A stretch of DNA of 61,525 bases, from NCBI RefSeq assembly GCF_003788585.1, contig NZ_AYKG01000013.1, positions 1 through 61,525 of the forward strand. Reading direction: 5' to 3'. Below, in pieces: positions 1-3,663 of the stretch. Numbering within the stretch: the first letter of the stretch is position 1; each line of letters starts with the position of its first letter. A program made the translations under genes and the position numbers. The notes below the pieces were generated by a model. That model was not told the origin of the DNA and made no database searches. It saw nothing but the letters and a program-made list of their open reading frames with translations. Origin of the DNA: Salinisphaera japonica YTM-1. GTDB taxonomy: Bacteria; Pseudomonadota; Gammaproteobacteria; Nevskiales; Salinisphaeraceae.

Positions 1-283
<283 letters not shown>

Positions 284-388: not shown

Positions 389-463
<75 letters not shown>

Positions 464-495: not shown

Positions 496-569
<74 letters not shown>

Positions 570-678: not shown

Positions 679-859
679 TGGTGGAGGGAGGAGGATTATT
701 CAGCGCTTAGCGCTTCACCCTTCGGGCCAACACGCCTTGCGTGTTGTTCGTCGCAGCTTTCGCTGCGCCGTCGAACCTCTATCGGTTCGAAAACCCCCTG
801 GATGCCTCTTCGCCTGTCGCCATCGACAGTTTTTTGCTACTACTTTCCTGATCTGGTGA
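679..859 (-). repeat. 181-bp tRNA-Tyr-tail repeat, distal copy (rtT-like)
   Basis: In the direction of transcription this unit is a 162-bp spacer (698-859) followed by a 19-bp copy of the tRNA-Tyr 3' end including CCA (679-697, TGGTGGAGGGAGGAGGATT on the plus strand). It is the second of two tandem units below tRNA-Tyr. Several short hairpins can be drawn, for example AGCGC-TTA-GCGCT at 702-714, a CAACACG/CGTGTTG stem and a GCAGC/GCTGC stem. It differs from the proximal unit at only three positions. The arrangement closely parallels the 178-bp repeats with 19-bp tRNA tails of E. coli tyrT that give rtT RNA. No convincing protein is encoded. Confidence 0.85.
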
Positions 860-1040
860 TGGTGGAGGGAGGAGGATTATTCGGCGCTTCGCGCCTCACC
901 CTTCGGGCCAACACGCCTTGCGTGTTGTTCGTCGCAGCTTTCGCTGCGCCGTCGAACCTCTATCGGTTCGAAAACCCCCTGGATGCCTCTTCGCCTGTCG
1001 CCATCGACAGTTTTTTGCTACTACTTTCCTGATCTGGTGA
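860..1040 (-). repeat. 181-bp tRNA-Tyr-tail repeat, proximal copy (rtT-like)
   Basis: This is the first unit directly after tRNA-Tyr: spacer 879-1040, then the 19-bp tRNA tail at 860-878. It is identical to the distal copy except in one hairpin, which here reads GGCGC-TTC-GCGCC (883-895). The outer A-T pair of the distal copy has become G-C, and one loop base differs. The period is exactly 181 bp across all three tails (679, 860, 1041). RNase processing at each CCA tail would release spacer-sized RNAs; that is inferred from the E. coli case. Confidence 0.85.
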
Positions 1041-1125
1041 TGGTGGAGGGAGGAGGATTCGAACCTCCGAAGGCTGAGCCGACAGATTTACAGTCTGTTC
1101 CCTTTGACCGCTTGGGTATCCCTCC
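1041..1125 (-). tRNA. tyrU: tRNA-Tyr (anticodon GTA)
   Basis: A class II tRNA of 85 bases including CCA: acceptor GGAGGGA with TCCCTCC, anticodon stem-loop around CTGTAAA (GTA), a long variable arm, T-arm GGTTCGAATCC and discriminator A. It sits in the tyrU position of the tufB-type tRNA operon. Its last 19 bases are repeated twice downstream at 181-bp intervals. Confidence 0.97.
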
Positions 1126-2655: not shown

Positions 2656-3663
2656 TCACCCGCGCGGGGCGCGCAGACGCAGGCTGAGGTCGCCGGAATA
2701 GATCCGCTCGTATGTGCCGTCGTTGTCGAGGATCAGGCTGCCGTCGGCAGCCACGCCCCGGGCCACGCCGTGGCGTCGGCCGCCCGGCTCGAACAGGGTC
2801 ACGGCTTGACCATACAGCACGTCGAAACCCGCCCAGCGGCTCTGAAAGACAACGAAACCGTTCAGCGCGAACGTATCGATCGCACGCAGCACCGCATCGA
2901 TACAGCGCCCGGCGATCACGCTGCGCGCCGGCAGGTCGGGCACGTGATCGGCCAGGCGTGTCCATGCCTGATCAATCGGTGCAGCAGCAGCGCGCGGCAT
3001 GGCCAGATTCAGCCCCAGCCCGGCCACCAGCCGCGTACGGGTCGTCGCCTCGGCACGCGCCTCGATGAGAATACCGCCGATCTTGGCCCGGCCGATCCAT
3101 AGATCGTTGGGCCATTTCAGGCCCACGTCGGCCGCGCCCAAATCGCGCAGCACCTCGGCCACGGCCACGCCGATGGCCAGTGACAAGGCCCCCAACGCCC
3201 CGGCCCGGGGCGCCAGATCACGCCCGACAGACAGATACAGATTGGCCGCCATAGGTGATACCCAGGCCCGCCCGTCTCGCCCGCGCCCGGCAGTCTGTTG
3301 TTCAGCCAGACACGCCCGGGTCAGCCCGTCTTCACAGGCCCCGACATAACTGTTGGTCGAGTCGATCGATTGCAGCACCACCAGCTGATCGAGCATGCGG
3401 CCCGCCGCCACCTCGAGCGCGGCGCGCACGGCCGGGCCATTCAGAAGGTCGAGCGGCCCGGCGAGGCGATACCCGCGCCCGGTCACGCTATGGATGGCCA
3501 GGCCGCGCTGGCGCAGCCGGGCGATACGCGCCGAGATCGCGGCCCGGGTGACGCCGAGTGCCTCGGCAAGCACCGGGCCGCGATGCCAGGCCCCGTCGGC
3601 GAGCGCGGCCAGCACCGGATCAGGCGCCTCGATGTGATCAGATACGCCGACCGGCTGGCTCAT
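2656..3663 (-). CDS. birA: Bifunctional biotin-[acetyl-CoA-carboxylase] ligase / biotin repressor
   Basis: BirA makes biotinyl-AMP and attaches biotin to the carboxyl carrier protein AccB; E. coli-type proteins also repress the biotin operon. The 335-residue product has an N-terminal winged helix (about residues 15-65, ALGVTRAAISARIARLRQRG), the biotin-binding GRGRDGRAW near residue 125, KWPNDLWIG near 185 and GGILIEA, then a C-terminal SH3-like domain. The DNA-binding domain implies it keeps the repressor role. Its ATG overlaps the plsY stop by four bases, so it is probably translationally coupled as the last gene of the acyl-CoA synthetase-plsY-birA run. Confidence 0.95.
   Translation of the reverse strand: MSQPVGVSDHIEAPDPVLAALADGAWHRGPVLAEALGVTRAAISARIARLRQRGLAIHSVTGRGYRLAGPLDLLNGPAVRAALEVAAGRMLDQLVVLQSIDSTNSYVGACEDGLTRACLAEQQTAGRGRDGRAWVSPMAANLYLSVGRDLAPRAGALGALSLAIGVAVAEVLRDLGAADVGLKWPNDLWIGRAKIGGILIEARAEATTRTRLVAGLGLNLAMPRAAAAPIDQAWTRLADHVPDLPARSVIAGRCIDAVLRAIDTFALNGFVVFQSRWAGFDVLYGQAVTLFEPGGRRHGVARGVAADGSLILDNDGTYERIYSGDLSLRLRAPRG

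Follow-up and report, generated by a model that had tools for sequence, protein, structure and literature searches.

The window analysed in this study was a stretch of 61,525 nucleotides from Salinisphaera japonica YTM-1 (contig NZ_AYKG01000013.1). At its beginning, on the minus strand, an intact tRNA-Tyr gene was followed by an array of two tandem units, two further tRNA genes and the start of a gene which we take to encode EF-Tu. The core of the units was searched with R2, a model built from the core and the T-arm half without the tail. The features, given in the direction of the RNA with the evidence in brackets, were as follows:

1041–1125, minus strand: intact tRNA-Tyr(GTA), upstream of the array (ARAGORN, Rfam tRNA)
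860–1040, minus strand: RtT unit 1, 181 nt, with trailer and leader, hairpin P2, core and tail (repeat comparison; Rfam RF00391 at 860–995, 58.7 bits; folding)
952–971, minus strand: hairpin P2 of unit 1, UCGAACC/GGUUCGA (folding, positions)
879–951, minus strand: core of unit 1, with P3 at 930–951, P4 at 909–927, P5 at 898–908 and P6 at 883–895, then CGAAT (R2 match 879–958 at 71.6 bits; covariation)
860–878, minus strand: tail of unit 1, a copy of the last 19 bases of tRNA-Tyr with the CCA end (repeat comparison)
679–859, minus strand: RtT unit 2, 181 nt, with three differences from unit 1 (repeat comparison; Rfam RF00391 at 679–814, 55.8 bits; folding)
771–790, minus strand: hairpin P2 of unit 2 (folding, positions)
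698–770, minus strand: core of unit 2, with P3 at 749–770, P4 at 728–746, P5 at 717–727 and P6, the variant hairpin, at 702–714 (R2 match 698–777 at 68.4 bits)
679–697, minus strand: tail of unit 2, a copy of the last 19 bases of tRNA-Tyr with the CCA end (repeat comparison)
496–569, minus strand: tRNA-Gly(TCC), next gene on the strand (ARAGORN)
389–463, minus strand: tRNA-Thr(GGT), next gene on the strand (ARAGORN)
2–283, minus strand: start of the EF-Tu-like gene, cut by the end of the window (open frame of 94 aa)

The last 19 bases of tRNA-Tyr (1041–1059) recurred at 860–878 and 679–697, a step of exactly 181, as an earlier note on this DNA had described. The two tail copies were separated by 162 bp. 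The 3' strand of P2 in unit 1, GGTTCGA (952–958), was identical to the 5' half of the T-arm of tRNA-Tyr (1059–1065). Both cores in the window were flanked by GGTTCGA and a tRNA tail. On the same strand, an open frame of 358 aa (1200–2276) was situated between tRNA-Thr(TGT) and tRNA-Tyr. It gave the impression of an outer-membrane protein, and no Pfam family matched it.

On the RNA strand, the two units differed at 895/714 (G to A), 890/709 (G to T) and 883/702 (C to T), and at no other position. All three differences were located in hairpin P6, which was GGCGC-GAA-GCGCC in unit 1 and AGCGC-TAA-GCGCT in unit 2. They comprised one compensated change of a G-C to an A-U pair and one loop change, and the count made in the earlier note was correct. 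A species of the same genus (G011) had a single unit at the same place, with the hairpin GGCGC-GGA-GCGCC. Because G011 carries one unit there, the second unit of the window is probably a recent tandem duplicate; the alternative is loss of a unit in G011. The three clustered changes in one copy may represent a single mutational event. As a donor for the variant P6, no sequence within 2 mismatches was found in the own genome, and no exact match was found in the 376 loci collected.

Both units scored above the gathering score of the Rfam RtT family (RF00391), with 58.7 and 55.8 bits against 45, and the match extended from the leader to the CCA of the tail. None of 200 shuffled sequences matched the fold of either unit (z of −4.1 and −3.9). 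When R2 was applied to E. coli tyrTV, four matches at 50–56 bits were obtained, one of them in the tyrT–tyrV spacer. Because of the Rfam RtT match and the R2 matches in tyrTV, the window array, judged by its sequence, is homologous to the rttR array of E. coli. The earlier note had remarked on the likeness to E. coli tyrT and proposed a comparison with E. coli rtT; the likeness proved to be real homology. A convergent origin was ruled out by the Rfam and R2 matches. The suggestion that the device may have arisen more than once was not supported, and one family was found at many tRNA genes. A tRNA-Tyr-specific device was also ruled out, the core being present behind many tRNAs.

E. coli K-12 rttR (b4425, tyrTV) belongs to the same family by both Rfam and the core model, and it has the same order of tRNA-Tyr, leader, P2, core hairpins and 19-nt CCA tail in a tandem array. 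The window differs from it in the gene order of tRNA-Tyr, tRNA-Gly, tRNA-Thr and EF-Tu, in its two 181-nt units and in its weak leader–tail helix. An overlapping Tpr frame is annotated in E. coli and is not an Rfam requirement for RtT. The only RNA-strand frame of at least 20 aa wholly within the window array was an Arg-rich frame of 24 aa at 840–914; its comparison with E. coli Tpr yielded no alignment with E ≤100. Elements with a strong leader–tail helix share with tmRNA and other tRNA-like RNAs the trait of a structured RNA with a tRNA-like 3' end. Unlike these RNAs, RtT elements have no tag frame and no anticodon arm.

The distribution of the family was investigated with both models. With Rfam RtT, the own genome yielded a third copy that scored below the cut-off and was situated behind tRNA-Arg(CCT). 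R2 detected 12 matches at E ≤1e-5, located at Tyr (2), Arg-CCT (1), Arg-TCG (3), Arg-TCT (5) and Gln-CTG (1). At the Gln-CTG locus, a second unit was visible in the sequence besides the single R2 match. Rfam RtT matches were found in 18 of 61 relatives and in 65 of 369 genomes of the class. At E 0.01, R2 had matches in 120 of the 274 class genomes sampled and in 78 of 299 phylum genomes, many of the latter belonging to family f204 of another class. The f204 genomes had up to 15 copies, behind Ser, Gln and Asp tRNAs and tmRNA. Among the genomes sampled, the core was found behind Tyr, Gln, Ser, Arg, Glu, Asp, Lys, Pro and Val tRNA genes and behind tmRNA. A scan of named genomes with a tail-free DNA pattern returned at least 117 stretches, 80 of which were listed; R2 confirmed 79 of these 80, with 115 matches. 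The organisms among the pattern matches listed included Salinisphaera, Thioalkalivibrio, Pectobacterium, Marinobacter, Luteimonas and uncultured lineages. R2 did not confirm the pattern match in Actinacidiphila (L289), which was treated as a chance hit.

The last 19 bases of the elements were compared with the closest same-strand tRNA upstream of them. Among the 159 matches compared in the Rfam set, 128 had such a tRNA within 700 nt. The tail was identical to it in 74 matches, agreed at 18 of 19 positions in 21 and at 17 of 19 in 8, giving 103 of 128 at 17 or more; agreement was below 15 in 19 of 128. The tRNAs of this set were Gln, Tyr, Ser, Arg, Glu and Val. The remaining 31 matches had no such tRNA; 15 of them started within 350 nt of the end of a stretch, and one of the 31, at locus L058, followed tmRNA. 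In the R2 set, which comprised the 115 matches on the listed pattern stretches, 89 had a same-strand tRNA within 900 nt. Among these listed matches, the tail agreed with the local tRNA at 17 or more of 19 positions in 73 of 89 (57 identical) and at fewer than 15 in 12 of 89. When the same 89 listed tails were compared with tRNAs of other amino acids, none reached 17. A hand-picked set of 128 R2 matches, richer in distant genomes, had a tRNA or tmRNA within 700 nt in 81 cases; the tail reached 17 in 40 of the 81 (Arg, Ser, Lys, Gln, Tyr, Asp and Pro) and was below 15 in 33. Tails were often decayed, notably in family f204. At locus L058 (1501–1639, minus strand), an RtT element lay directly behind a tmRNA gene and had the 3' end of the tmRNA as its tail.

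The Rfam RtT consensus structure includes an outer helix between leader and tail. At a cut-off score of 22, the leader paired well with the tail in 58 of 94 elements. Pairing was 83–100% at tRNA positions 59–67 and at chance level in the CCA (74–76), in our own numbering; the anchor of this comparison used positions 58–72, so the high values there are partly built in. The leader paired better with its own tail than with the tails of all other amino acids in 49 of 94 elements, with 0 of 11 for Ser-GGA and 0 of 5 for Arg-CCG. In the window, the pairing score was 16 against the cut-off of 22, and a leader–tail helix was present in the minimum-energy folds and absent from the centroids.

The fold of the core was investigated in alignment A1, which covered the part between GGTTCGA and the tail in 65 diverse elements and was not fitted to structure. 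Run automatically on A1, RNAalifold gave a structure of no more than 7 pairs, because a sequence alignment misplaces hairpins of different length. This structure was replaced by helices that were named by hand and then tested. The resulting structure of 23 pairs in P3, P4, P5 and P6 had standard pairs in 85.6% of the A1 cells. Changes on both sides of a pair occurred in 277 cells, against a shuffled mean of 93 (0 of 500 shuffles as high) and 39–79 when the partners were slid, although the slid control favours the structure and is partly expected to, since the helices were read from the aligned sequences themselves. At least one such change was found in 20 of the 23 pairs of A1 (shuffled mean 15.4). 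The covariation across many genomes supported a core fold of four hairpins. A tandem GA motif in RtT has already been noted in the available part of one report (PMC7657543).

The single compensated pair of the window had been taken in the earlier note as a sign of selection on RNA structure, and this was not established. The pair was set aside as proof because the changes were clustered in one, probably recent copy, because correction templated by a DNA hairpin would give the same compensated pair, and because the comparison of G-U with A-C cells was equivocal. In the unfitted A1, there were 52 G-U and 42 A-C cells, and 31 and 35 without the first pair of P5. In alignment A2, the counts were 97 and 31, in an alignment that was fitted to pairs and leans to G-U by construction; G-U exceeded A-C in P4 and P5 of A2. 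The counts in A1 did not clearly favour RNA-level selection; those in A2 did. Selection on RNA need not be the cause when a short, near-perfect hairpin shows a compensatory change.

The position of the core in its surroundings was then compared between loci. A typical element had a short leader followed by GGTTCGA before the core. Among 482 context strings (at most 413 distinct cores), there were 10 loci in which a tRNA spanned the junction once the core was excised, and the junction was at the T-loop in every one of them. The tRNAs of these loci were Gln, Ser, Arg and Tyr, and L081 had no clear anticodon. In 7 of the 8 loci listed out of these 10, an intact copy of the same tRNA then followed. 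The eighth listed locus, L282 (283–361, plus strand), was a chimera of a tRNA-Gln body, an RtT core and a Ser-type tail, which suggests recombination through the core. At L241, one tRNA-Ser copy had cores in both the D-loop and the T-loop, and an intact copy was present downstream. Another D-loop core was found at L239. The dinucleotide before the core was GA in the cases read.

The core was also found inside ERIC repeats, in genome G629. The E. coli ERIC consensus aligned at 86% (L202 and L205) and 93% (L208) over 123–127 positions, with scores of 141–166 against a shuffled maximum of 60, and the core appeared as an insertion. At L200, L201 and L204 of this genome, the ERIC alignment was only partial. 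Some ERICs were reportedly described by Wilson and Sharp in 2006 as having about 70 bp inserted internally. The same core follows GA inside the ERIC copies of G629, while ERIC arms were absent around the window cores. The consensus sequence was taken from Table 1a of PMC2759123, available in part, and ERIC, or IRU, is described as a mobile repeat of 127 bp in the accessible sections of PMC2759123, PMC2229807 and PMC10969869. In genome G617, cores were located outside tRNA genes in another dispersed repeat (L210–L215). Closely successive cores, with starts about 73–115 apart and no tRNA between them, were present at L204, L220 and L234. Rfam sX4 (RF02223) matched, below its cut-off, tRNA-Ser and part of the element behind it at L020 (1369–1525, plus strand) and L018 (1585–1775, minus strand). 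The sX4 family may overlap the RtT family.

Core identity was compared with one core taken per genome and tRNA. Within the genus, cores at the same tRNA had a mean identity of 0.776 (79 pairs); 24 pairs were at 0.85 or more and 55 below, many of the latter close to the value for unrelated cores. For different tRNAs within one genome, the mean was 0.721 (51 pairs, all genomes), against 0.669 for unrelated cores (5759 pairs). At L237, an identical core was present behind tRNA-Pro and tRNA-Arg of one genome. Recent transfer between tRNAs was visible in few genomes, since cores at different tRNAs were only somewhat closer than unrelated ones. It seems that cores are inherited, that they are replaced at a locus and that they occasionally pass from one tRNA to another. 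L078, with further repeats behind a displaced tRNA end, and L116, with a presumably transposase-like frame between the tRNA and the element, were considered as longer gene-bearing forms, and neither looked autonomous. At L078 (about 2700–3300) and L123 (about 800–1060), the tRNA-Arg(ACG) sequence in front of RtT was a displaced 3' half, a layout resembling the distal end of an integrated island.

The two repeats are RtT elements homologous to rttR, and it is quite probable that such elements contain a core module copied into tRNA loops and give CCA-ended read-through RNAs. In each unit, a tRNA trailer and leader and the P2 hairpin precede four covarying hairpins, which make up the core, and the 3' end of the local tRNA is copied behind them. 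Most cores are about 70 to 80 nt long, and such a small module would enter a tRNA sequence in a loop, immediately behind a GA. The entry site would be the T-loop as a rule and the D-loop in the two cases seen, and in nearly all cases read an intact tRNA copy remained adjacent. We infer from the sequences that the core moves or is copied. The array would grow or shrink by exchange between tandem units. A 175-bp variable repeat in Salmonella rtT, listed in the part of PMC2658671 that was available, is in line with such growth.

The main rival, which we regard as possible and do not favour, is a repeat acting at the level of DNA. The hairpins would matter, if at all, as DNA, or would persist by hairpin-templated repair, with the RNA as a by-product, and spread would occur by template switching or gene conversion between the common T-arm halves GGTTCGA and AATCC. 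The missing clear excess of G-U over A-C in A1, the clustering of the three window differences in one hairpin of one copy, the recombination through the core to which chimeric L282 points and the identical cores with different tRNA flanks at L237 are consistent with this explanation. The orientation of the cores argues against it. The T-loop TTCGAA is palindromic, yet 168 of 230 regex matches had the sense T-arm half on the left and none had both flanks antisense, in a sample that is biased because the loci were mostly fetched with sense-flank queries. One regex match (L154) had an antisense-looking left flank and a sense tail. The D-loop and ERIC cases, which have no T-arm homology, the excess of G-U in P4 and P5 of A2 and the expression of RtT RNAs in other bacteria, as given in the accessible part of PMC4986893, also count against a DNA-level repeat.

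It is doubtful that the core is a mobile structured RNA, which would insert in single-stranded RNA loops (T-loop and D-loop, after GA, on the sense strand) and return to DNA by reverse transcription. If this were true, the core would be a minute intron-like or retro-element-like parasite, with RtT arrays, interrupted tRNA copies and ERIC insertions as its host sites.

An ordinary tandem duplication of tRNA tail and spacer, that is, an old arrangement inherited at each tRNA with no mobile core, is highly improbable. The 24 of 79 same-tRNA pairs between Salinisphaera species with an identity of at least 0.85 agree with it, as does the probable duplicate in the window. The other 55 pairs do not, and one core family is found at many tRNAs, tmRNA, D-loops and ERIC. 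As a full account, tandem duplication is contradicted by the identical core at two tRNAs of one genome (L237), by L241 and by the ERIC cases. The T-loop and the 3' end of tRNA genes are known integration sites. The least credible explanation is that the elements are remnants of integrative elements with the tRNA 3' end as attachment site and the tail as the displaced end: the tail copies resemble attachment-site duplications and the elements at L078 and L123 lie behind displaced tRNA-Arg 3' halves, but the units measured span only about 130 to 213 bp, the core is common while the tails differ by tRNA, the D-loop and ERIC cases do not fit, no integrase was noticed in the stretches read, and between the window tails an integrase and cargo were absent, the longest listed frame touching the array having 85 aa on the strand opposite to the tRNA in addition to the gap of only 162 bp.

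For the copied core module, which remains the preferred explanation, the expected products are as follows. Because the tail keeps the T-stem strand, the acceptor strand and the CCA, read-through transcripts could be trimmed by tRNA-maturation enzymes into RttR-like, CCA-ended RNAs. The end of the RttR feature in the E. coli K-12 RefSeq record falls exactly on the A of the tail's CCA. In Actinobacillus pleuropneumoniae, two RtT members (Arrc20 and Arrc21) near Asn and Lys tRNA genes gave Northern blot and RNA-seq signals, according to the available text of PMC4986893; these Rfam RtT members near non-Tyr tRNA genes are likened to the window by description only. Since E. coli RttR ends at the tail CCA and the Actinobacillus RtT RNAs gave signals, a processed RNA from the window array, which the earlier note had also predicted, is a fair prediction. 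Arrays of this kind probably yield CCA-ended RNAs. The window units are presumably transcribed and processed, and the RNA may have a function.

A role of RtT in the stringent response is cited in the same Actinobacillus paper, as far as its text was available (PMC4986893). In E. coli, overexpressed RttR was without effect on biofilm, motility and fimbriae in the accessible part of PMC4606813. In a pseudouridine preprint, available in part, the tRNA-Tyr neighbour is referred to as a regulatory sRNA that has been characterised (PMC11623569). The presence of RtT near other tRNAs and its expression are already known from the available text of PMC4986893, which describes no local-tRNA tails, T-loop insertion or ERIC. 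In the literature covered, which was partial and did not include the 1991 paper, neither the local-tail rule nor the T-loop position nor an ERIC link was found to be stated. To judge from these searches, three points are new: the local-tail rule, the T-loop or D-loop location of the core, and the ERIC link.

RtT has so far been known mainly from one E. coli operon and scattered reports. If the family-wide picture holds, RtT would be a common structured element of tRNA genes in Gammaproteobacteria and would join two repeat families, RtT and ERIC, that have been treated separately. It would also raise the question of which agent places copies of a 75-nt hairpin module so exactly in tRNA loops, and whether tRNA enzymes act on the CCA-ended products.
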